Source: a virus
Virus record (IMG/VR): IMGVR_UViG_3300047546_000455
Span: 1 to 24,965 of that record
Direction: 5' to 3' (one strand)
DNA length: 24,965 nt
Position 1 is the stretch's first letter, and every line of letters starts with the position of its first letter. The translations under genes and the position numbers were made by a program. Of this stretch, positions 7,010 to 24,965 are shown in pieces. The notes under the pieces are model-generated. The model worked only from the letters and a program-made list of their open reading frames with translations. It had not been told where the DNA came from and did no database searches.

Positions 7010-10000
7010 TCAGAGTTCAGCGTTAAAAGTTACGTCGCCAGTCCATTCCGCTGCACCGGCTGCGCCAGAACTAGTAACGCTTCTGGCTGTGCGATAGTCA
7101 AGTATGCCAACCGTAAACGAAGACACGTTGTTTGTATAACTAGCCGACCAACTTGCAGACGGAGCGGCGCGCATGGTACGTGGGTAATAAAACATCGCCA
7201 CCGAAGTCCCGCTGGCTATGCTTACGTAGGCGGAGTGATAAGTTGTGTAATAGTACCTCTGACACAACGCCAACTCATCCCCATAAAAACGTCGCTCAAA
7301 CGGCGTTGCCACCGCCCCCACCTCAAGCTGAACTCCGACTAACTCAAACTGGTTTCCTGCTTGATCAATGCAGTTTACTTGTGCAGCCGTCCCAAAAAAG
7401 TTGCCAGTCTGCCATGCACCTGCGGTTGTTTGGTAATTAGAGCCAGCTATTAAAGTAAAGCAAACAGCCACGCCAATTAAATTCCCGTAATCCCATGTGC
7501 CGGCGGTTATTAAGCCACCCGTAACCGTGATTGTTTTGTATTCCCAGGTATTAAATGAATTTACTGTGTAAGTTGCAACATAGGACCTGTCGCTTGCTCT
7601 GTTTTTGAATGAAACGCAATGTGTTCCTGTTTTGGGGCTTTTAACCCAGAACGACAGCGTGAATGTTCTGCCGGTCAAGTCACGAATGTTAAAGCCTTCA
7701 ATCCTTTGCTCAATAGCAACCACATCAGTCGCGGCCACCGATGCGTCACCAGTGGTTACCGTAAGCCGTAAATTTTCCGGCAGCGCTGATGTTGCGCTTC
7801 CGTTAGCAAGGCCAACATTAAATTGGGCGCTAGTGCTTTTTGAAATTGCCCATCTATCTAGTGTGTAGGAGCCATCTGCCGGATTAATAAAACTAAGACC
7901 GCGCTGACTAATCTCCATCGCACCATTAATGATCTTGTTGCGCGACCCAGCCAACTGCCCGCCGTTGTAAGACCCCGCAGAAATGCTCGCAGTCTGAACA
8001 TCCGACCAGCGTTTGCTTGCGCTGCCAAGGGTCTGCGCGTTGTCTACGGACGGGGTGATATTGCCGCTGGTGTCCACCACGGCCCGCTCTGCACCGCCGA
8101 CATAGATTCCCAATGGCACGAATGAGCCCGTGCCGGTTTTGTCGCTGCGTAGCTGGGCCTGGGAGGCCGTCACGCCTACGTACATGTGGGACGAGTTGTC
8201 TACGTCAGATGCGTTGTGGGTGATGAAGTAGGAGCCTGTGGCGGTGCCGTTGGGCTTGGCCGTCACCACCGTAATGCCGTTGGCCGTGCTGGACTGGAAG
8301 GCCGTGCGAAGGCTGTTGGTGGCGTTGGTAAAGTCGCCCTGAATGACCCGGCTTGATCCGCTAAAGACAAGGTTAGCGGCCAAGGTCTGATTGGCGGTGA
8401 ACGTGTTGGCGAAAGCCAAGCCAGGGAAGTCGGTGCCGGCGACCGCGGCGGTAAACGCACTTGTGCCATTGCCCTTCACAATCCCGGTCAGCGTGCCCAC
8501 GCCAGTGCCGCCCTTGGCAACCGTCAGCGTGGTGATGGCAGGTTCATACGCCGTCGAGGCCGTGAATGCCGCGCTGCCCAGCGTCCCGCCGCTCCCGATA
8601 TTGAGGGTCGAGCCATCCGTGCCCGCAAGCGTCAGGTTGTTGCTGACTGCCAAGGTCTTGGCCGTTGTGCCGCCCGCAATCTGGAACCCGGTGGCGTTGG
8701 CCGTGAGAGTCAGGCCGTTGTAGGTCTTGCCAGTCAGCGCGCTCGGCAAATCGCCGTCCACAATGGCATTCCACCCAGGCGCGGCCGATACCGTGCCGGT
8801 GCCAGTTTGCGTCAGGAACCGCTTGGCCGTGGTGGTGTTGCCGGCGAGGCGCACGTTGTCCACGCCATCGCTGTAGATCAGATCGCCCAGCGTGATGGCA
8901 GGCGACAGCGCGTCAAACGCCGTGACCTTCGAGGTGGCGCCGGTGCCGCCGTAGGAGATACCGATGGCGCTGCCCGTCCAAGTGCCGCTGGTGATTGTGC
9001 CCAGCGTCGTCACGCTGGCCGAGCCTGCGGCCGGGGCGTAGGCCGTGCTGGCCGTAAACGCCGCCGATCCAAGCGTGCCGCCGCCGCCAATGTTGAGTGT
9101 CGATCCGTCCGTGCCGGCTAGGGTCAGCGTGTTGCTGACGGTCAGAGTCTTGCTCGTTGAGCCGCCCGCCACCGTAAAGCCAGTGGCCGCCGCCGTCAGG
9201 GTCAAGGCGTTGTAAGTCTTGCCGGTCAGCGCCGACGGAATGTCCGGGTCGGTCAAAGTATCCCAGGCCGGGGCGGCCGATACGGTCCCGGTGCCGGTCT
9301 GACGCAGGAAACGGCGCGTCGTGGTCGTGTTGCCCGCCAAGCGCACGTTGTCGGTGCCGTTGCTGTAAATCAGGTCGCCTAGCGTCGTAGCGGGGGAAAG
9401 CGCATCAAAAGCAGCCAGCGCCGTCGTGGCGCCCGTGCCGCCCTTGGCAATGCCGATGGTCGTGGCATTCCACGTTCCGGTGGCCACCGTGCCCAGAGTG
9501 GTGATGTTGGCGGAGCCCGCCCAGGTTGAAAGCGCCGTATTTTCGACGTTGCCCAGGCCCACATCAGCCTTGGCCACAGCGCTCCACACAGGAGCCGCGC
9601 CGTTGGTGCCCGTGCCGGTCTGCGACAAAAACTGTTTGGTCGTCGTGACGTTGGGCGAAAGCAGGGTCGTCGTGTCGGTGTTGGACTGATACCCGATGGC
9701 CCCCAGCAGCGTCGTGTTGTTGCCGCCGACCAAGTTGGTCGCTTTGGTGGCCGTGGTGGCGGTGGTCGCAGATCCGGCTGAGCCGTCGATGCTTACCCCC
9801 GTCAATGACAGCGACGCCGACGTGCGGTTGATTGCCACGCTGGTCGTGCCGATGAACATCGTTTGATTGTTCAGCGCCACGGTCCCGGTGGTGGCCGGCA
9901 GCGTGATCGTGGTGCCGTCAGTGCCGGCCAGGGTCACGCTGTTGTTGATTGTGAGTGTCTTGCTGGTCGTGCCGCCAGACACCGCAAAGCCGGTGGCGTT

Positions 10001-10921
10001 GGCCGCCAGCGTCAGCGCGTTATAGGTCTTGCCGGTCAGGGCCGAAGGCAAGTCCCCATCGACAATGGCCGAGGCCGACCATGTATCAACCCCGGTGCGC
10101 CGCACAAAGCCCGTGGTGGCGATGCCTTCAACGGCCGCCAAGTCGTTGGCCAGGGCCAGGGTGGGATTGCCCGAAACCCCGTCGCCGTTGCTGACCGTAA
10201 GCCCAGCGGCAGGCGCGGTAATGCTTCTCACGCTAACGGTCCCGGCTCCAGTGCGGGCAATCAGGCCATTGGCAGCAAGCCCGGCAAGGGCAGTCAGATC
10301 GGAGTCGAGGGGCTGATACCCGGCCGTCAGGTCGGCCAGCAGGGCAATGGTCCCGCTCGCGTTGGGAACTGTCAGCGTGCGCGTGGTGCCGGTCGTGACG
10401 CCAGACACCTCAAACGCCACTTTCTTTGTGGAGTCCGCGTTGTCAGCAATAGTTGTTGTGGAGTCCACTCCGGTAATCGTGACTCCGCCAATCGTGCCGC
10501 CAGTGATGGCCACTGCGCTCGCGTCTTGCGTGGCCATGCTCCCCAGGCCCAGATTCGTGCGCGCCGTGGCCGGAGTAGGCAGGTCTGACAAGTTGTTGTC
10601 TTTTTGCAACATCTGTTGCGCCGACGCTGCGGTCATGCGCTGCTCGATATAGCAGGTTGCAATGCCGTCCCGCGCCCGCCCGGTCGTGCCGTCCTGCGCG
10701 CGCACGATGGTCCAGTTGTTGCCGCTTACCGCCGTGACTTTGACAATCTCGATGTTGATTTCATCGTGCCCGGAAACCTCGTACATCGTGGCGTAGAAGT
10801 AGTCGCCCGCAGCAGGCACCGGAAACGCGGTGCCCGACACAACGGTGATTGAGGTCTGGCTGTTGTTAATCGACCCCGAGAGCGTGGTGCTCGCGTTGTT
10901 CTTGAACTGTAAAGTTCCCAT
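7010..10921 (-). CDS. Long tail fiber protein with repeated shaft and receptor-binding tip
   Basis: This 1303-residue protein has three parts. The N-terminal attachment region (about 1-110) begins MGTLQFKNNASTTLSGSINN. A long Thr/Gly/Ala-rich shaft (about 110-960) has repeated motifs such as SALTGKTYNALTL, TLAGTDGSTLNIG, GTWNATTIGIAKGGTGATT and FDALSPATTLGDLIYS. The C-terminal tip starts near residue 995 with SRNKIINGAMEISQRG, followed by YTLDRWAISK and a carbohydrate-binding-like beta domain. The NKIINGAMEISQRG segment is widespread at the start of receptor-binding tips. DNA for the tip (about 7010-7930) is clearly more AT-rich than the shaft, suggesting exchange. The ATG lies one base after the stop of the adaptor gene. 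No intramolecular chaperone motif is evident at the C-terminus. Confidence 0.85.
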   Translation of the reverse strand: MGTLQFKNNASTTLSGSINNSQTSITVVSGTAFPVPAAGDYFYATMYEVSGHDEINIEIVKVTAVSGNNWTIVRAQDGTTGRARDGIATCYIEQRMTAASAQQMLQKDNNLSDLPTPATARTNLGLGSMATQDASAVAITGGTIGGVTITGVDSTTTIADNADSTKKVAFEVSGVTTGTTRTLTVPNASGTIALLADLTAGYQPLDSDLTALAGLAANGLIARTGAGTVSVRSITAPAAGLTVSNGDGVSGNPTLALANDLAAVEGIATTGFVRRTGVDTWSASAIVDGDLPSALTGKTYNALTLAANATGFAVSGGTTSKTLTINNSVTLAGTDGTTITLPATTGTVALNNQTMFIGTTSVAINRTSASLSLTGVSIDGSAGSATTATTATKATNLVGGNNTTLLGAIGYQSNTDTTTLLSPNVTTTKQFLSQTGTGTNGAAPVWSAVAKADVGLGNVENTALSTWAGSANITTLGTVATGTWNATTIGIAKGGTGATTALAAFDALSPATTLGDLIYSNGTDNVRLAGNTTTTRRFLRQTGTGTVSAAPAWDTLTDPDIPSALTGKTYNALTLTAAATGFTVAGGSTSKTLTVSNTLTLAGTDGSTLNIGGGGTLGSAAFTASTAYAPAAGSASVTTLGTITSGTWTGSAIGISYGGTGATSKVTAFDALSPAITLGDLIYSDGVDNVRLAGNTTTAKRFLTQTGTGTVSAAPGWNAIVDGDLPSALTGKTYNGLTLTANATGFQIAGGTTAKTLAVSNNLTLAGTDGSTLNIGSGGTLGSAAFTASTAYEPAITTLTVAKGGTGVGTLTGIVKGNGTSAFTAAVAGTDFPGLAFANTFTANQTLAANLVFSGSSRVIQGDFTNATNSLRTAFQSSTANGITVVTAKPNGTATGSYFITHNASDVDNSSHMYVGVTASQAQLRSDKTGTGSFVPLGIYVGGAERAVVDTSGNITPSVDNAQTLGSASKRWSDVQTASISAGSYNGGQLAGSRNKIINGAMEISQRGLSFINPADGSYTLDRWAISKSTSAQFNVGLANGSATSALPENLRLTVTTGDASVAATDVVAIEQRIEGFNIRDLTGRTFTLSFWVKSPKTGTHCVSFKNRASDRSYVATYTVNSFNTWEYKTITVTGGLITAGTWDYGNLIGVAVCFTLIAGSNYQTTAGAWQTGNFFGTAAQVNCIDQAGNQFELVGVQLEVGAVATPFERRFYGDELALCQRYYYTTYHSAYVSIASGTSVAMFYYPRTMRAAPSASWSASYTNNVSSFTVGILDYRTARSVTSSGAAGAAEWTGDVTFNAEL
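8535..9530. repeat. Two tandem copies of a ~495-bp shaft module in the tail fiber gene
   Basis: Corresponding segments recur about 490-495 bases apart. The KTYNxLTL-coding block occurs near 8715 and 9208, the LAGTDGSTLNIG-coding block near 8600 and 9095, and the FDALSPA-coding block near 8905 and 9395. A more diverged third copy of the KTYNALTL/LAGTDGT part lies near 9910-10030. The repeat encodes about 165 residues of fiber shaft. Boundaries are approximate because they were read by eye. Confidence 0.6.
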
Positions 10922-18209: not shown

Positions 18210-19016
18210 CTACACGGTCGGGGGTGTGTTTTTATACGGGTGCCCGGATGGCAGCGAACCTTCTAAGGCCCACTTCCATGCTAAGTAGCCTTCTAGTCTC
18301 TGGCGGTCGGCTGTGGCAACGGCAGACCTCGTAAATACGATTTCGGCTATATCGCCTGCAAACATAAACGAGTAATCATGTCGGGAACCGATTTTGATGC
18401 TTGCATCGGCGGCATTTAGCGGCCTTAACACTGGCGTCCCTAGAACTCCGTTTATCCTTGACGCGGCGTCTATTTGCCCAGAACTTGGCGAGCAGTGAGA
18501 TTGATAAAGAGCCGCGCCAGTAGTTCCGCCTATAATTGCGTCGGCATAAGGAGATGCGTTGTAAATTGTCCTCAAAAATGCAGAGCCAGCGGTGTGCGCT
18601 TCGTAAGACTCCAACCCGGAAGAATATAAAAAACATGGGTTGCTTGAAGTAACTCTAGCCACGAATAACGCGTCATACCCGGCCAGGGTGTTGATTCCCA
18701 ATGTGCCTGTTGAGGGTATTGTGAAAAAGTCGTTATCGAATAAGACACATGGCTTACCGCTGAGCCCTGTTGTGCTGTAGGTTGGTTGGCTTGCTGCCGT
18801 CGGCTGAGTAGCGTGGTTGCTGCCGCCGCTTTTGTCCGACCACTGGCTGACCGTCGAGCCATTGAGCGTGATCGTGCCGGCATCCTCTGCGTCAAGCCAT
18901 AACGCAAGCGCCGACCCTAAATTGCTTGGTCGCCACAACTTTGGTCCACCAAACAAAGTGCCATCCCAGCGGTATGGATGGCCGTATGGCAATTGCCTCA
19001 CTAGTTCCATGCTCAT
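18210..19016 (-). CDS. LamG/concanavalin-like adhesion protein (second of a pair)
   Basis: The ATG at 19016 overlaps the preceding stop by four bases (ATGA) and gives 268 residues. It begins MSMELVRQLPYGHPYRWDGT, then has a concanavalin A-like domain from about residue 38: LGSALALWLDAEDAGTITLN, GSTVSQWSDKSGGSNHATQP, ASQPTYSTTGLSGKPCVLFD, ending DRQRLEGYLAWKWALEGSLP and SGHPYKNTPP. LamG-like domains of this type bind glycans. The first 20 residues look like the C-terminal LPxGHPY ending of another LamG domain, which is missing from the gene just upstream. This suggests that the two genes were once one. Base composition is more AT-rich than the neighbouring head genes. A receptor-binding role is inferred. 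Confidence 0.7.
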   Translation of the reverse strand: MSMELVRQLPYGHPYRWDGTLFGGPKLWRPSNLGSALALWLDAEDAGTITLNGSTVSQWSDKSGGSNHATQPTAASQPTYSTTGLSGKPCVLFDNDFFTIPSTGTLGINTLAGYDALFVARVTSSNPCFLYSSGLESYEAHTAGSAFLRTIYNASPYADAIIGGTTGAALYQSHCSPSSGQIDAASRINGVLGTPVLRPLNAADASIKIGSRHDYSFMFAGDIAEIVFTRSAVATADRQRLEGYLAWKWALEGSLPSGHPYKNTPPTV

Positions 19017-19738
19017 AACCCACCCCACTTCCACGCCAGATAACCTTCGATTCGTTGCCGGTCTTGAGTAGAGATCGAGCCGCTGACAAATATCCACTCA
19101 CTTACAGAGCCGCGAAAATTACGAATGCTCGACAGTGGAGAATATTGGAGGTTTGTTGATTGAATAACGTCCGCGAGACTATCGCGCCGGAATCTCATTG
19201 ACGTTGGCGGCAATGGAAGTAACGCATTTGTACCTACCGGGCTGCCGTTTTTGTATACGGTGCCCGTGAAGTTGGCCCCGTCGATATAAGCAAGCATTGT
19301 AGCCGTCCCGACGACTACAATAACTCGCTCGTAGTTAAAACCACCAGGGCCAGAAAAAATAGTGTTTATATTGGTCGACAGTGTCTCAGCCCCGTCGCCG
19401 TAATACCCAACACAATAGACCTCTTGATATGCAGCACTCGGCGTCGTTAAACCAATCAAGCCAGCATCGACGGGGACGTTAACCGTGGGCTTGTTGTACA
19501 GGATTGGATCGGACGCAATGTACGTGGGCTGACTTGCAGCAGTCGCTTGCACAGCGTGCTTACTATTGCCGCTTTTGTCATCCCATTGCGCAACAGTCGA
19601 GCCATTAAGCGTGATAGTGCCGGCATCAGCCGCGTCAAACCACATCGACACGACCGACGAGCCAAGCTGGGCAGGGGTCCAGCGTGACCCACGCGACCCC
19701 TGAGAAATACCCGCTAGCCGAGTAGCCCGGAGTCTCAC
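19013..19738 (-). CDS. LamG/concanavalin-like adhesion protein (first of a pair)
   Basis: This 241-residue protein starts at a GTG overlapping the previous stop (GTGA). It contains the same core as the following gene: LGSSVVSMWFDAADAGTITL, NGSTVAQWDDKSGNSKHAVQ and AASQPTYIASDP, then a diverged beta sandwich, then STQDRQRIEGYLAWKWGGL at the C-terminus. LamG domains of this kind normally continue past LAWKWG into an LPxxHPY motif. Here a stop follows at once and that motif reappears at the start of the next gene. Probable glycan-binding virion protein. The variable middles of the two copies suggest different ligands. Confidence 0.7.
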   Translation of the reverse strand: MRLRATRLAGISQGSRGSRWTPAQLGSSVVSMWFDAADAGTITLNGSTVAQWDDKSGNSKHAVQATAASQPTYIASDPILYNKPTVNVPVDAGLIGLTTPSAAYQEVYCVGYYGDGAETLSTNINTIFSGPGGFNYERVIVVVGTATMLAYIDGANFTGTVYKNGSPVGTNALLPLPPTSMRFRRDSLADVIQSTNLQYSPLSSIRNFRGSVSEWIFVSGSISTQDRQRIEGYLAWKWGGL

Positions 19739-20169
19739 GACAACTCCGTCACTTCAAGTGTACCGTCCGAAGTTCCGGCCCGGATCACGGCAATGTTTGG
19801 AGTGGCCGGGACGTCAATGTCCAAACGCTCGCCGGCGGCAATAAAATGGCTTGTTGCGCTGGCTGTCTGAGAGGTGCTTCCGACCACGTAGCGAATGTCA
19901 GCGTTTCTCGCGTACATGCTGATACGGGCCACACCAACGGTAAGCGCTGTGTTGGCACTGGCCGCGCCTGCCGTCAATTGCCTTGCCACTCCAGGAACGC
20001 CAAGGGGCTCGACATTTATTCGTTGATACTCAGAGCCACCGGTGCCGACAATCGAGACTGGGAGCCCGCCGGTTGCCGTCGAGTACGGTTCCCCCGTGGT
20101 CGGATTGACCGCAACCACGCCATCAGCGATCCGGCTGTCTGGCAACTGAACCTTTTTATCCTGCCACAT
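19735..20169 (-). CDS. Small beta-rich phage protein, probable virion component
   Basis: This 144-residue protein begins MWQDKKVQLPDSRIADGVVA with AAGGGGA upstream of the ATG. The N-terminal third is loop-rich (NPTTGEPYSTATGGLPVSIV). The rest is regular beta strands, including ISMYARNADIRYVVGSTSQT, HFIAAGERLDIDVP and IAVIRAGTSDGTLEVTEL. The arrangement resembles small accessory structural proteins of phages, but I recognise no characterised family. It is translationally coupled to the first LamG gene by a four-base overlap, so it may anchor the adhesion proteins to the head or tail. Confidence 0.55.
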   Translation of the reverse strand: MWQDKKVQLPDSRIADGVVAVNPTTGEPYSTATGGLPVSIVGTGGSEYQRINVEPLGVPGVARQLTAGAASANTALTVGVARISMYARNADIRYVVGSTSQTASATSHFIAAGERLDIDVPATPNIAVIRAGTSDGTLEVTELS

Positions 20170-20189
20170 GAATGTCCCCTTGCGGCCGC

Positions 20190-20561
20190 TCAGGCCAGAA
20201 ACGTTAGTTTGTAGATCGTCCTGGCGTACAGCCCTTCGATCTCGTCAATGATGTTTTGCAGGCACGTGTCCTCCTTGGGCACTGCCTTGTAACGGTTTTC
20301 GCCTATGTAGTCGCTTTGCGCATCAAGCAAGGCAAGTATCTCCATGTCGCCTTTGTTGCTCGTCAACGGAATGGACAACAATTGCCGATTGCGCCCCTGC
20401 CATGTCTCGGTGAACTTGTCGGCAAGCTCGGTAATCCCCGTGTAGAACTCCTCCAAGGCCACGTGGCGCGAGTATCTGGTCGCGCTAAGGTGCTCACGAT
20501 GGGCCAGCTCGCGGGCGAGAAACCACACGCCCACTAACATTCCAGCCTCTTTTGCTGCCAT
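20190..20561 (-). CDS. Small helical phage protein, DUF5856/ferritin-like type
   Basis: This 123-residue, all-helical protein starts nine bases after the portal stop. It contains LAHREHLSATRYSRHVALEE followed by FYTGITELADKFTETWQGRN, then DMEILALLDAQSDYI and a C-terminal helix pair (LQNIIDEIEGLYARTIYKLT). The H-x-x-T-x-x-Y-x-x-H-x-A-L-x-x-F-Y-x-G-I pattern resembles small ferritin-like phage proteins of the DUF5856 type, whose function is unknown. Its His/Glu residues are compatible with metal binding but no full di-iron site is evident. It lies between portal and adhesion genes. Confidence 0.55.
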   Translation of the reverse strand: MAAKEAGMLVGVWFLARELAHREHLSATRYSRHVALEEFYTGITELADKFTETWQGRNRQLLSIPLTSNKGDMEILALLDAQSDYIGENRYKAVPKEDTCLQNIIDEIEGLYARTIYKLTFLA

Positions 20562-20570
20562 ATTGGATCT

Positions 20571-22727
20571 CTACGGGGAAATATTCGGGGCGGACACGTC
20601 CACCTGAGGCGTGCGCACAATGGGCTCGAACTTGGCCCGCCGCGTTTCGGCCATCGCCTTCTCGGCCTCGGCGTTGATCTTGCGAATACGGGCCGCACGC
20701 TCGGCCGCGTCCAGCACGAAGGTCTTCTGCGCAATGTCTTGCTGCATAGCCTGGGCCTGCTGCTGCGCCTCGGCCTGGGCCTGCTGCTGCTCGGGGTCTT
20801 GGATGCCCACCGCGGCGCGCAACCGGTCAGCAAGCTCGTGCCGGCTGGGCAGGTCCGTGGCCTCGATCACAAAGTCGATCACAAAGCCCTGAAGCTGCGG
20901 CGGCAGGCTCTTGGTGATTTCGGTGAGCATCTGCAATTGCTGCATCCGGTAGGTCGGCGTGCTCGGCACATCGTCCAGCACCACCTTAGCCTTGACCTTG
21001 GCCACGTCGTTGATCGTGACCATTTCCCCTGTCTCGGGGTCTTGCGCCTTGGCGTTGAGCACAATCACCTTCTGCTGCTTGCCCTCGCCAATCTTGACCT
21101 TGACCGGGCCTTGCATCAGGTTTTGCTTGACCAATTCAAACAACATTTCGCCCACCAGCCGGCGGGAATAGCGGAAGTTGTCGTTAATCTCGGCCAGGGT
21201 ATTCAAGCCCTGCTCGACCAGCGAGTTGATGGCCAGCCCGGACGTGGCGCCCGACTGCTGGCCCTGCATTGACTTGTGGATGCCCGAAGCCTCGGATATT
21301 TCCTGCTTGGCCTCTTGCATGACCTGGAACTGCTGCGCCGCCAAGTCCGCGCCGGGCTCGACCCGGAAAGTGCTGTTAGGCTTGCGGTTGGCGTTCAGGA
21401 TCACGTAAGCATCGGGCCGCGCCACCTCCTGCATGGTGCGGCTGTGGTCCAGCACCGCATCAGAATCGGCCACCACGCGCCGGCTGTTCAGACTCCACAG
21501 CATCTTGGACTTGCGCGCGTTGATCTCTTGCTGCGGAGAAATCATGGCCCGGATCAGGCCATAGGGCACGTTGGTCAGATCCTCGCGGTAGCCGAAGAAG
21601 GGCACGTAAGGAAAATGGCCATGCTTGTACGGGCTCGGCACGTCATACAAGAAGTGCGGCCCCGTGTACCAAGCCAGTCGGACTTTCTGGAAAGTGGCTT
21701 GCTTGATCGTGGCAATTCCGGAAACGATGGCCTCGTTGTGGCGCGGGTTGTCGAAGTCGGCTTCCATCGTGGTGCCGTTGGGCAAGGTCATCACGTACCC
21801 GCGCACCCACTTACGATACCAAATCTCGTACAGGCAAATGCGCATCCGTTGAATGTCGCGCCAATCCACCGCGGCGATCCGGGTGTCGCGCTCAATTTCC
21901 CACGACTGCACCAAGCGGCTGTCCTGCTCCAACAAGGGATCGAACCCAGCCCACCCGCCCGTGGTCATGCGAAACAGGCTCGCGTACTGCGGCATCAGCG
22001 CGATGGCGTGCTCAAGCTCCAGCCAGCGGCGGCGAATCAGGTAACGGGCGTCCGACAAGTCGGGCTGCTCGGCCCGCCAGTCCCAGAAAATCTCCCGGCG
22101 ATGCACGTAGCGCACACGATAGGGGCACTTGAACGGGTCATGCTCCCGTGCCACCTCGACCCAGCCCAGCCCCGCCTTGAGTTGGCCGGCGTAGGCGTCG
22201 GACACAGCGCGGTCGGCCCGTGACTCAATCTCGGCGTGCTTGAGCTTGACCGAGAGCGCCTGGGCCATTTCGTCCTCGCACTCGTCATCATCTTCTTGCC
22301 GCACGACCCAATCGCTACGTGACTTGGCCTCGATGCCAAGCACCGTGTCCACGGTCGGCTTGATAATGTTGGTAATGAGTGGGGGCTGGCCGCGGTCCTT
22401 GAGGGTTTCCACATCCTCTGGGGAGAGCTGGTTGCCATCGTAGAAGTCGGCGGCCCGGTCAGCTTCGCGCCTCCAGTGAGGCTGATGCTTAATCTCGCGC
22501 AGGAACATCTCCACCTGAGCACGTGGCAGCGCAGAGTTCTCAAGGTCGTCGGGTATCTGACCGGGGGACTGAGTGTCGGTGGGCGCTTCCCCAATCACGA
22601 CATTGCCCGTTGGCTTGTCATCATGCTGATACTGCTTGGCCATAGTCGGCCCGCCAGCGTTGGCGCCTGGGTAGCCTTCGCTGTCGCGCTCTATGGCTTC
22701 GCTGTTCAACTGAATGTTGCCAATCAT
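20571..22727 (-). CDS. Portal protein, P22-like
   Basis: This 718-residue protein is close in length to the P22 portal (about 725). Motifs typical of the family include HWRREADRAADFYDGNQLS (about 85-103), PPLITNIIKPTVDTVLGIEA (about 114-133), AGLGWVEVAREHDPF, EIFWDWRAEQPDLSDARYLI, HFPYVPFFGYREDLTNVPYG and SGATSGLAINSLVEQGLNTL. The C-terminus is a Gln/Ala-rich helical stretch (QQQAQAEAQQQAQAMQQ), which would form the portal barrel. It forms the dodecameric DNA channel, recruits the terminase and nucleates the procapsid. It lies 65 bases after the terminase stop. The first ATG has only a weak ribosome-binding site, and an internal ATG about 28 codons later (MAKQYQHDD) is an alternative start. 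Confidence 0.9.
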   Translation of the reverse strand: MIGNIQLNSEAIERDSEGYPGANAGGPTMAKQYQHDDKPTGNVVIGEAPTDTQSPGQIPDDLENSALPRAQVEMFLREIKHQPHWRREADRAADFYDGNQLSPEDVETLKDRGQPPLITNIIKPTVDTVLGIEAKSRSDWVVRQEDDDECEDEMAQALSVKLKHAEIESRADRAVSDAYAGQLKAGLGWVEVAREHDPFKCPYRVRYVHRREIFWDWRAEQPDLSDARYLIRRRWLELEHAIALMPQYASLFRMTTGGWAGFDPLLEQDSRLVQSWEIERDTRIAAVDWRDIQRMRICLYEIWYRKWVRGYVMTLPNGTTMEADFDNPRHNEAIVSGIATIKQATFQKVRLAWYTGPHFLYDVPSPYKHGHFPYVPFFGYREDLTNVPYGLIRAMISPQQEINARKSKMLWSLNSRRVVADSDAVLDHSRTMQEVARPDAYVILNANRKPNSTFRVEPGADLAAQQFQVMQEAKQEISEASGIHKSMQGQQSGATSGLAINSLVEQGLNTLAEINDNFRYSRRLVGEMLFELVKQNLMQGPVKVKIGEGKQQKVIVLNAKAQDPETGEMVTINDVAKVKAKVVLDDVPSTPTYRMQQLQMLTEITKSLPPQLQGFVIDFVIEATDLPSRHELADRLRAAVGIQDPEQQQAQAEAQQQAQAMQQDIAQKTFVLDAAERAARIRKINAEAEKAMAETRRAKFEPIVRTPQVDVSAPNISP

Positions 22728-22792
22728 GGGCCTAAGTCCGGGTGCTATCCGCCAAGGGTATTTTGGACGCGCGGCGGCTATTTGACCTTTGG

Positions 22793-24965
22793 TCAGACAC
22801 GCCAGTTATGGTCCCTTCGCGGGTTAATCATGGTGGTTTGGGGGTCTGGCGGGGTCGATGCGTACCGTTTCATGACATAGGCGTACCGGGTGGCGGACAA
22901 CAGGTCGTCTTGCAGCTTGACGATAAGCCCGTCCTTGCGGTGGTACAGGCGGAACTCCGCGAACCAGTCCTCCAGCCCCCGGAACACCTTGAACTTGCCA
23001 CGCTTCATGTCGTCGAACATGAGCGTCACACCTGCTTCGACACTGGTGCGGCTGGTCTTTTTGCCTTCCTCGTCGCCCGTTTCCGGGAGCTGCGCGTATT
23101 CGTGCAGCATCTTGGCGCCGTGCGCACGGTACTGCTCGGCCAACTGGATGCCGTCACCCTTGGACCGTTGCAAACCGTCCGCCGGCCAAGCCACCGGCAC
23201 CCAGTCGCCACGCTGTTTGATCCTCGGGACAATCTGCGCCGGGGTTTCGTTGCTAACCCGGTAGGTGTCGTACACGTACACCGTGTCGGTGTCGCGGTCC
23301 CAAGCCAGCCAAGCCCCCGCGCTCGGGTGGTCGATGCCGAAGTCCACCCCACAAATGATCGGCCAATGGTCTGGAATGGGGAACGGATCGACACTGATGG
23401 CGCTTTCGGCAATCGGCCACACGCGCCCACTGCCCAAGATGGGCACGCCCTTGGCCCGTGCTTCACGCTCGTGTTCCGGGTATGAGGCAATGATGCGCTG
23501 CCGGTCTTCCTCGCTGTAGTGGCCAACATCTTCAATAGTCATGTTGGTATCTGACCGGTCGGGCGTCGGGTTTTGCAAGAACAAGCGCACGACCTCGGAC
23601 ATACCAAGCAACGGGGTGAAGGTGATCCACACAATCCCCTTGGTCGCGTTGGTCCGGGTCAGCACCTCGGTGTAAATATCACTTGGCGGTTCCTCGTCCA
23701 GTGCGGCGAAGTCCAGCGTCTCGCCTTGGAGCTTGGATCGGCCCTTTTCGTAACTCTTGAAGTACAGGCGCGATACCAAGCCGCTCACGTGCTTGACGAA
23801 AACAGCGTCCACCGAGTCGGCAACACCCTGCGCGCGTTTGATCTCAATGATGAGTTTCTCGGGGATGGTGCCAGTGCCCCACTCCCCAGGCCGGCCCAGA
23901 ACTAAGCGTTGCAGGGTGTCGCGGGTCGATTCCATGGATTCGCCCAGCGCCCAGCCCGTCACACCCCGATTCCAGCGCTTGCCACGCCACCATTCTGGAT
24001 AAAGCCCGGTGAGGTGCATGGCAATCTCGTAGGCACTGCTCCACGTCTTGCCGCAGTTGTGGTGGTATATCCCTGCCGCTTTGTAGTTGTGCGTGTCTGG
24101 CACTTGAGCGTCTACTATCGGCTGGAAACCAATAGGCAGGATTGCTATAATCTCACTATTGCCGACTAGCTTAGGGGAAGATTGTGGGAAGAATATCGCC
24201 GCTTGCCGGTCATCACGAACAAATGCTGCGGTGGAATGCCCAAGGCTTAGAGCGTCAAGAGATTGCACAAAAGCTGGGAGTGTCAAAGCACACTGTGCAG
24301 GCGTATTTGCAGCGCCGCGGCATTCGGCCGGTGACGATGCGGGGCAAGGCGCTGTTACCCCAGGCGGATAGGGTCCGTCACATGGTTGAAGTCCTGCGTA
24401 TGACGCAAGCGCAAATTGCCGCAGAGCTTGGTGTGCATTTGACAACGGTAGAACGTCTGTGTGCATCGCTGGGCCTGCAAACGATGCGAACAGGGCCGCG
24501 CGCAGCGCATGGTCATTGTCAGCGGTGGGCAGGCGGTCGAATGCTTGAAAAGCATTGGTACATTGCTGTGTTCGTGCCTCTGCATCCGTACGCGAGAAGG
24601 ACAGGGTACGTTGCAGAGCATCGTTTGGTAGCTGAAGTGATGCTAGGGCGCTATCTTGATGAATCGGAAGTTGTGGATCACATAGATAGCCACACTCAAC
24701 ACAACTGGCCTGCCAATCTTCGAGTTTTCCCCAAAAACGCAGACCACTTGAAAGCGACATTAACTGGTCGAGAGAAATATAGCCGTGTTCGGTCAATATT
24801 CGGTGACTGGACGAGCAATCGACAAAGCGACCCTGTGCCGTCACTAAACGAAACGCTGGCTCAATGCCCTTCACAAACCCGTTTAGCAGTGGAGCATCAC
24901 ATTCGTATTCACCAGCCCACGAACGAACACGCACACCTTTCTCGAAGAAAGCTATGGCGCTCAGG
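22793..24965 (-). CDS. terL: Terminase large subunit interrupted by an intein, 5' end outside the window
   Basis: The frame is open from the right edge to a TGA at 22795-22793. The last 420 residues are the C-extein, starting CGKTWSSAYEIAMHLTGLYP: the end of the Walker A P-loop of the packaging ATPase. Counting from that Cys, Walker B is LDFAALDEE (about 114-122), the coupling motif is TFTPLLG (145-151), the nuclease domain begins CGVDFGIDHPS (235-245, first acidic residue D238), and DDLLSATRYAYV (383-394) holds the last acidic pair. Everything before the Cys codon (24055-24053) is intein. A GTG at 24934 is not a real start because the frame continues upstream with intein-like sequence. The mature enzyme powers DNA translocation and cuts concatemers, so its activity must depend on intein removal. 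Confidence 0.9.
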   Translation of the reverse strand, partial: LSAIAFFEKGVRVRSWAGEYECDAPLLNGFVKGIEPAFRLVTAQGRFVDCSSSHRILTEHGYISLDQLMSLSSGLRFWGKLEDWQASCVECGYLCDPQLPIHQDSALASLQLPNDALQRTLSFSRTDAEARTQQCTNAFQAFDRLPTADNDHALRAALFASFAGPAMHTDVLPLSNAHQALRQFALASYAGLQPCDGPYPPGVTAPCPASSPAECRGAANTPAQCALTLPAFVQSLDALSLGHSTAAFVRDDRQAAIFFPQSSPKLVGNSEIIAILPIGFQPIVDAQVPDTHNYKAAGIYHHNCGKTWSSAYEIAMHLTGLYPEWWRGKRWNRGVTGWALGESMESTRDTLQRLVLGRPGEWGTGTIPEKLIIEIKRAQGVADSVDAVFVKHVSGLVSRLYFKSYEKGRSKLQGETLDFAALDEEPPSDIYTEVLTRTNATKGIVWITFTPLLGMSEVVRLFLQNPTPDRSDTNMTIEDVGHYSEEDRQRIIASYPEHEREARAKGVPILGSGRVWPIAESAISVDPFPIPDHWPIICGVDFGIDHPSAGAWLAWDRDTDTVYVYDTYRVSNETPAQIVPRIKQRGDWVPVAWPADGLQRSKGDGIQLAEQYRAHGAKMLHEYAQLPETGDEEGKKTSRTSVEAGVTLMFDDMKRGKFKVFRGLEDWFAEFRLYHRKDGLIVKLQDDLLSATRYAYVMKRYASTPPDPQTTMINPRRDHNWRV
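24123..24151 (+). promoter_or_regulatory. Extended -10 sigma70-type promoter for the antisense HNH gene
   Basis: A perfect -10 TATAAT (24146-24151) is preceded by TGC (24143-24145), forming an extended -10. A partial -35, TGGAAA (four of six to TTGACA, 24123-24128), sits at a 17-base spacing. Transcription would start near 24158, about 26 bases before the GTG. The element lies within codons of the C-terminal Hint part of the intein on the opposite strand. Confidence 0.75.
24173..24178 (+). promoter_or_regulatory. Shine-Dalgarno sequence setting the GTG start of the HNH gene
   Basis: AGGGGA (24173-24178) lies five bases before the GTG at 24184 and just overlaps an in-frame TAG (24172-24174). 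The next in-frame ATG (24223) has no such site, so the GTG is preferred. Confidence 0.7.
24184..24965 (+). CDS. HTH-HTH-HNH homing endonuclease encoded antisense to the TerL intein, 3' end outside the window
   Basis: From the GTG, 260 residues are visible with no stop. Residues 24-47 form a helix-turn-helix (RQEIAQKLGVSKHTVQAYLQ RRGI) and residues 73-98 a second (TQAQIAAELGVHLTTVERLC), probably for DNA recognition. The HNH nuclease follows: GYVAEHRLVAEVMLGRYLDE (141-160), SEVVDHIDS (161-169, catalytic-type His166), HNWPANLRVF (173-182, conserved Asn178) and HLKATLTGRE (188-197). This matches the HNH_3-type domain of phage homing endonucleases. A polar tail (198-260 and beyond) lies opposite the N-terminal Hint codons. 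The gene has its own extended -10 promoter and ribosome-binding site and is the only plus-strand gene in the window. By inference it cuts intein-free terL alleles and so drives spread of the intein. The nuclease family is sure; the homing target is inferred. Confidence 0.88.
   Translation, partial: MGRISPLAGHHEQMLRWNAQGLERQEIAQKLGVSKHTVQAYLQRRGIRPVTMRGKALLPQADRVRHMVEVLRMTQAQIAAELGVHLTTVERLCASLGLQTMRTGPRAAHGHCQRWAGGRMLEKHWYIAVFVPLHPYARRTGYVAEHRLVAEVMLGRYLDESEVVDHIDSHTQHNWPANLRVFPKNADHLKATLTGREKYSRVRSIFGDWTSNRQSDPVPSLNETLAQCPSQTRLAVEHHIRIHQPTNEHAHLSRRKLWRS

Follow-up and report, generated by a model that had tools for sequence, protein, structure and literature searches.

A phage terminase intein with an antisense HNH endonuclease gene and a putative promoter within its splicing-domain codons

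How could an endonuclease gene be expressed when it lies wholly antisense within the intein of another gene? The question is raised by a linear viral DNA fragment of 24,965 bases, the whole of IMG/VR record IMGVR_UViG_3300047546_000455 (hereafter the window), in which the terminase gene terL on the minus strand contains an intein and the plus strand of the same DNA carries an open reading frame (ORF) for an HNH endonuclease. An original prediction, made from the letters of the window alone, had placed an antisense expression unit at 24123–24184 (+), consisting of a −35-like TGGAAA, a 17-base spacer, an extended −10 element TGC-TATAAT, a Shine–Dalgarno-like AGGGGA and a GTG start codon, and each of these elements is present at that place. 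Here we describe the intein and the antisense gene in the window and in related loci, and weigh whether the unit is a promoter or a shadow of the amino acids encoded on the other strand. Our analysis suggests that the nuclease is probably switched on separately, by a hidden promoter that many related phages have retained.

An intein within the Walker A motif of TerL

The terL gene runs on the minus strand and reaches the end of the record. Its C-extein occupies 22793–24055 (−), beginning at the +1 Cys within the Walker A motif (CGKTW) and ending at the stop codon, and matches Terminase_6N and Terminase_6C. It is preceded in the reading direction by the Hint-C half of the intein (24056–24163, −), recognized by alignment and predicted fold and ending in His-His-Asn (HHN, 24056–24064). 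The Hint-N half (intein residues 16–88) lies at 24746–24964 (−) and is supported by alignment, predicted fold and a weak hit in NCBIfam to a DnaB model that includes an intein. Cys1 and the N-extein are cut off by the record end and are visible in another contig (L004), which is identical to the window over an overlap of 7170 bases, extends beyond it and gives both the complete TerL ORF and the complete antisense ORF (273 amino acids). In that contig the intein measures 318 amino acids and sits between RAGNQ and CGKTW. Ten intein-free relatives (L005–L014) have an uninterrupted RAGNQLGKTW at the insertion site; four of them (L005–L008) share 91.5–92.8% of the C-extein DNA beyond its first 150 bases with L004 and match it at 69–90% over 150 bases of the N-extein.

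A profile of the aligned inteins matched DnaB intein structures at 4.2e-13, and the structure model of the window intein matched the DnaB intein 4o1r at 2.1e-6. Cys1 and the C-terminal HHN are present in all 26 aligned inteins, with Cys, Ser or Thr at the +1 position. The Pfam Intein_splicing model stayed under its cut-off in the three loci L071, L110 and L032 and gave no match in the window at an expectation value (E) of 0.1. By its predicted fold, its junction residues and its absence from the site in relatives, the insert is a Hint intein, and splicing is predicted. Pfam was applied to the C-exteins of the window and of three other loci; those of L110 and L125 fell into terminase families, and that of L071 had no Pfam match.

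The predicted structure of the sense intein is confident near residues 1–88 and 284–319. The stretch between the Hint halves, about 190 amino acids long, is filler: in the window it comprises intein residues 89–282 at 24164–24745 (−) and is the reverse reading of the HNH gene, as judged by its prediction confidence, with a predicted local distance difference test score (pLDDT) mostly below 50, and by the substitution phase described below. It gave no endonuclease domain match and no confident fold, and so lacks what would mark a classical intein with an in-frame endonuclease.

An antisense gene for a predicted homing endonuclease

On the plus strand, opposite the intein, an ORF with a GTG start extends over 24184–24965 and runs off the record. 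It carries helix-turn-helix (HTH) and HNH_3 domains (Pfam) in the order HTH–HTH–HNH, and its HNH core motif, EVVDHID...HN...NL...NADHL (24667–24762, +; HNH_3 at protein residues 146–186), is complete. The antisense proteins match phrog_10730, an HNH endonuclease family, with E values of 1.1e-152 for Pseudoalteromonas phage PHS3 and 6.6e-19 for the window. Both HTH regions and the HNH core are confidently predicted; the protein is poorly predicted from residue 197 on, a part that lies largely opposite Hint-N. The best structural match of the HNH model, to I-HmuI, is weak (E 0.094). On the strength of its domains and motif, we assign the ORF to the HTH–HNH endonucleases and predict that it is a homing nuclease. 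The window protein has an extra N-terminal HTH (24184–24471) without a counterpart in proteins of the PHS3 and Ymer types.

Both strands are kept open in a family of loci

The layout of the window recurs in Pectobacterium phage Ymer and in PHS3. Searches with the HNH protein gave 6 further loci, 80 kept of 239 relatives in viral contigs, and 6 genome contigs that include Enterobacter cloacae and Acinetobacter. In all, 97 partly redundant loci were examined. The non-redundant sets used below comprise 54 loci (with a called HNH start), 70 (with an intact HNH) and 79 (all). An antisense ORF covers more than 80% of the HNH match in 96 of the 97 loci, and 92 combine an open antisense HNH frame with an ORF that continues through the junction HHN/[CST]GK[ST] (the slash marks the splice junction). 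The five exceptions are L034, without such a covering ORF; L126, with a short antisense ORF; L101 and L115, where the junction was not found; and L124, which reads NHN/SGKS. An HNH motif pattern matched in 55 of 57 loci. When the sense intein was used for searching, 80 of 102 relatives were kept, many on contigs already in the set. All 80 gave some antisense HNH signal and 79 had the core, in a search that favours HNH-bearing inteins because its query included filler sequence. As a source of HNH-free controls, these 80 yielded only L154, whose signal is not the core.

In each of the 54 non-redundant loci for which a start was called, the two frames stand in the same antisense phase, HNH codon positions 1, 2 and 3 lying opposite sense positions 1, 3 and 2. 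None of these loci has a stop codon in the sense frame, against an average of 7.18 expected when the HNH codons are shuffled among their synonyms; the window has none against 5.0 expected (P = 0.0035). The loci had been preselected for a covering ORF, a filter that dropped one of the 97, and we reject the idea that the openness of the sense frame is accidental.

Substitutions give the complementary view. Among 13 hand-chosen pairs, of which 12 were informative (L079 and L083 do not differ), the HNH wobble base was the most substituted position opposite the HNH core in all 12, and in the C-exteins of the same pairs substitutions were most frequent at the sense wobble base. Between the window and L003, the core has 39 substitutions at sense position 1, 59 at position 2 and 41 at position 3. 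We therefore also reject the HNH frame as an artefact of reading the sense gene backwards, since the substitution phase favours the HNH wobble. The structure predictions, with a poorly folded filler and a confident HNH core, mirror this pattern. Judged from these comparisons, both frames are held open by selection, with the nuclease frame better conserved over the core and the sense frame in the extein.

A putative promoter unit in the window

Within the window, the −35-like TGGAAA (4 of 6 consensus bases) lies at 24123–24128 (+) and the extended −10 element at 24143–24151 (+), with a full TATAAT (6 of 6) at 24146–24151; both were located by a consensus scan and fall in the family's −35 and −10 columns in a 16-row alignment. 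The hexamers, 17 bases apart, together score 10 of 12 and are accompanied by a TGn extension. The −10 element ends 32 bases ahead of the HNH start and faces Ala-Ile-Ile codons; the sense codons across it are Ile-Ile (ATT ATA) inside Glu-Ile-Ile-Ala (24143–24154), where the original prediction had put them. The Shine–Dalgarno-like AGGGGA, read from the sequence at 24173–24178 (+), is weaker than the GGAGG of many relatives.

One argument for the site fell away. A full TATAAT had been held to be improbable in this DNA, yet two are found (18531 and 24146) against 1.75 expected on both strands in 40 first-order Markov simulations. In the same simulations, sites with at least 10 of 12 matches are expected 2.48 times and found once, and a promoter scan of 20000–24965 gave 2 sites against 1.5 expected. 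The rare element is TGnTATAAT, found once in the window against 0.10 expected. Taken singly, the window thus gives modest evidence for a promoter; the site stands apart because of its place before a real gene start and its conservation in relatives.

Conservation of the putative promoter across the family

HNH starts were called from the ribosome-binding site, the start codon and the distance between them, leaving the promoter score out; three loci without a called start (L003, L041 and L090) reduced the promoter set from 57 to 54. Scoring used sigma70 base frequencies and the anti-Shine–Dalgarno sequence. In 45 of the 54 loci the best sigma70-like site before the HNH start has a 17-base spacing, and in 39 it ends 26–31 bases ahead of the start; an exact match of at least 4 bases to the anti-Shine–Dalgarno complement is present in 48. 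PHS3-type loci read TTGAC[AT]-17-[GA]ATAAT, often with AGGAGGT.

Because the sense strand encodes a splicing domain, a likeness to promoters might come from the protein. Under a synonymous null, in which TerL is recoded with its own synonymous codons so that protein and codon usage stay fixed, 27 of 54 loci have p < 0.05 and 11 of 54 have p < 0.01. In an earlier run, in which starts were chosen near the start of the HNH match (wrongly for L102 and others), the count was 26 of 57 loci, compared with 5.1% among 1094 control windows. For a finer view, hexamer columns fixed by the protein alignment were compared with 300 synonymous shuffles in the 70 intact non-redundant loci. Of the four hexamer positions that face third bases of sense codons, −35 G3 (42 of 59 against 15.6 expected), −35 A6 (24 of 70 against 12.9) and −10 T1 (37 of 70 against 18.8) exceeded every shuffle. 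The check proposed with the original prediction, whether the −10 bases are kept beyond what the codons require, thus came out in favour of the promoter for the family at three of the four testable positions in the two hexamers and failed at −10 A4. Third positions around GGATATGGAGG, ahead of the start, are also conserved in a table of 35 loci that is biased, the loci having been picked partly by the location of their best promoter; the 70-locus test repeats its hexamer part.

The window conforms to the family. In the 16-row Hint-C alignment, in which L003 was left unmarked, its −10 and −35 share codon columns with 10 of the 14 other marked rows, and in a 70-row alignment its −10 falls in the family columns with TATAAT complete, its −35 lying beside a gap. 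L003, its nearest relative, has TGC-AATAAT at the place of the −10 and a best score of 10.0 despite a damaged HNH core. From these alignments, most loci have the putative promoter at one common position, with that of the PHS3 type shifted some 16 bases away from the intein end, and a putative sigma70-type promoter for the HNH gene is well supported as conserved at the family level. Of the antisense expression unit originally claimed within terL, then, the HNH gene and a sigma70-type promoter in Hint-C are supported, and the window on its own stays borderline (p = 0.046, or 0.057 with a shorter stretch, under the synonymous null).

Where the nuclease is broken, the promoter tends to be weaker: the median score is 10.2 in the 70 loci with an intact HNH against 6.4 in 9 with a broken or lost one (one-sided Mann–Whitney p = 0.006). 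A decay series is visible in L142, L145, L146, L149, L153, L154, L204 and L090, in which the HNH is truncated at its start or has lost its core (L154) and the Hint ORF is open. In L142, from position 2335, the Walker A motif after the intein reads TKT where other loci have GKS or GKT, which may reflect a TerL of impaired function or an error in the sequence.

Weighing the readings

We give a probability of roughly 0.8 to the reading in which the locus is a TerL Walker A intein whose homing endonuclease is a separate antisense gene, with a promoter partly written into synonymous positions of Hint-C. The figure is not higher because some subgroups have their promoter over different codons and because TerL identity was tested in few loci. 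Several findings weigh against this reading. The borderline p values of the window are joined by its weak ribosome-binding site and GTG start; by the rule used in the 54 loci, the window has no exact match of at least 4 bases to the anti-Shine–Dalgarno complement. The sigma70-like score itself favours 17-base spacing. The −10 A4 is unenriched (27 of 70 against 24.0, reached by 74 of 300 shuffles) and the −35 T2, which faces a first codon position with partial synonymy, falls a little short of expectation (42 of 70 against 44.4). Since the loci share ancestry, the shuffle p values are too confident. The promoters of the PHS3-type loci L032 and L036, of Ymer (L031) and of L123 lie over other codon columns, and in several loci with an open HNH the called start is preceded by a weak promoter or by none (L111, L123, L125 and the Enterobacter cloacae type L103, L110, L117 and L122). 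The association with nuclease integrity also has its exceptions: L003, L041, L090 and L204 score 9.4 to 12.7 with a broken HNH, and among the loci that score low with an intact one are L190, L186, L117 and L148, all below 6. In several broken loci the region around the HNH start has been deleted, so a single event may have removed both the gene and its promoter.

The foremost rival reading is that the promoter likeness is a by-product of Hint-C residues, Ile-Ile read backwards resembling a −10 element and TATAAT arising by chance, with the HNH gene hardly expressed or reached by read-through of an antisense transcript started elsewhere. Scores under the protein-fixed null are indeed already high, with means mostly of 4–9 against real scores mostly of 8–13, so that the amino acids supply much of the likeness; the TATAAT count is as expected, the window p is 0.046–0.057, and the promoter is absent from some intact loci. 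A mere by-product, however, would leave unexplained the three of four hexamer positions above all 300 shuffles, the excess of promoter-bearing loci over control windows (26 of 57 against 5.1%), the PHS3-type promoter over different codons and the ribosome-binding matches in 48 of 54 loci, and we regard it as unlikely.

Somewhat less probable still is that the window HNH is a decaying relic and its promoter a remnant. The GTG start and weak ribosome-binding site fit decay, as does L003, the only diverged relative of the subtype to turn up among viral contigs, which has lost part of the core. Against it, the core motif of the window is complete and well predicted, the −10 is at full consensus, and the bias towards the HNH wobble holds even against L003 (59 against 39 and 41). 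That the promoter is real and serves mainly to make an antisense RNA that damps terL is very improbable: such a transcript would by its position be complementary to the intein part of the terL mRNA, but downstream of the promoter come a ribosome-binding site and an HNH frame that is open and under selection, and the promoter score is generally lower where the HNH is broken.

If the locus is indeed an intein with a separately promoted antisense nuclease, host RNA polymerase would transcribe the nuclease from the unit at 24123–24184 independently of terL, the nuclease would cut intein-free terL DNA at the Walker A site, and repair would copy the whole intein into the cut gene. Protein splicing would then restore TerL and discard the filler. 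Expression might, more tentatively, be early or constitutive, so that the nuclease would be made before TerL, a suggestion that rests on the host-type character of the promoter. We think it rather likely that this separation of strands is the design of widespread TerL inteins, with the splicing domain travelling with a late packaging gene and the nuclease placed antisense under its own host-type promoter. The nuclease could then be timed independently of the host gene, and some 600 bases would serve as a nuclease gene on one strand and as spliced-out filler on the other.

Relation to known systems

The arrangement has partial likenesses elsewhere. In split inteins, a free-standing endonuclease gene can lie between the halves of a fractured gene; there too the endonuclease is a separate protein encoded between intein halves, whereas here a single continuous ORF runs through the antisense gene. 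Classical endonuclease-bearing inteins, among them TerL inteins such as Mic1 (PMC7156551), carry the endonuclease in frame as one of their own domains. Like our locus, they have a Hint domain placed in a conserved phage-gene motif and endonuclease DNA between its halves; they differ from it in that the endonuclease here is a separate protein from the other strand.

Nuclear group I introns of Didymium carry antisense homing endonuclease genes that are thought to have their own promoter, and antisense interference is discussed for them (PMC9548176). In both cases the endonuclease gene runs antisense to its host gene. Those elements are RNA introns in eukaryotic ribosomal DNA, so no protein frame has to be preserved on their opposite strand; here, in phages, the opposite strand is translated and predicted to be spliced, and a putative sigma70-type promoter lies inside the splicing-domain codons. 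The ShiLan-type HNH, hidden out of frame in a phage DNA methylase, likewise overlaps a host ORF that the insertion leaves uninterrupted; its expression is unexplained and no ribosome-binding site was found (PMC11855218, in the parts searched, which contain no mention of an antisense orientation). The ShiLan type has no splicing domain, whereas our gene is antisense within a Hint intein with a candidate promoter and ribosome-binding site.

The antisense protein belongs to or near phrog_10730, whose entry says only 'HNH endonuclease' and nothing of an antisense intein context. We found no antisense endonuclease inside an intein among the open-access papers listed by our searches, most subscription literature lying outside them. 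Within that scope, antisense endonuclease genes in group I introns and endonuclease-bearing inteins are known, and an endonuclease intein arranged on two strands appears to be new: a fully overlapping antisense endonuclease gene would add to the known architectures of mobile inteins. Because a candidate promoter and ribosome-binding site can be named, the question of how hidden HNH genes are expressed, as raised in PMC11855218, becomes directly testable here. The family is also a natural set of long double-coding sequences for measuring selection on each strand.

Annotation and other observations

Relatives occur in isolated phages, E. coli and Enterobacter, and in their annotations one of the two genes is retained while its partner is disrupted or overlooked. 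The GenBank record of PHS3 (L032) keeps the HNH gene and places the TerL start after the intein; in E. coli MEI003 (L127, NZ_CP071263.1) the HNH is retained and TerL is labelled incomplete. Both have an unbroken ORF across the intein. Ymer (L031) and Taid (L033) show the opposite error, with the long ORF in the TerL position annotated as a hypothetical protein and the antisense HNH unannotated. Six further Pectobacterium and Dickeya phages match. The stretch of the Enterobacter element has matches in 14 of 5426 E. coli genomes, one of them over at least 80% of the stretch.

Elsewhere in the window, two overlapping minus-strand ORFs (18210–19097 and 19013–19738) share the motif LDA.DAGTITLNGSTV.QW.DKSG, as if by tandem duplication; the duplicated module at 18210–19738 is presumably lectin-like, a name that is our guess. 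A repetitive ORF of 1303 amino acids at 7010–10921 (−) looks tail-fibre-like by eye, and its C-terminal part lies in the kilobase of lowest G+C content in the window (0.49).

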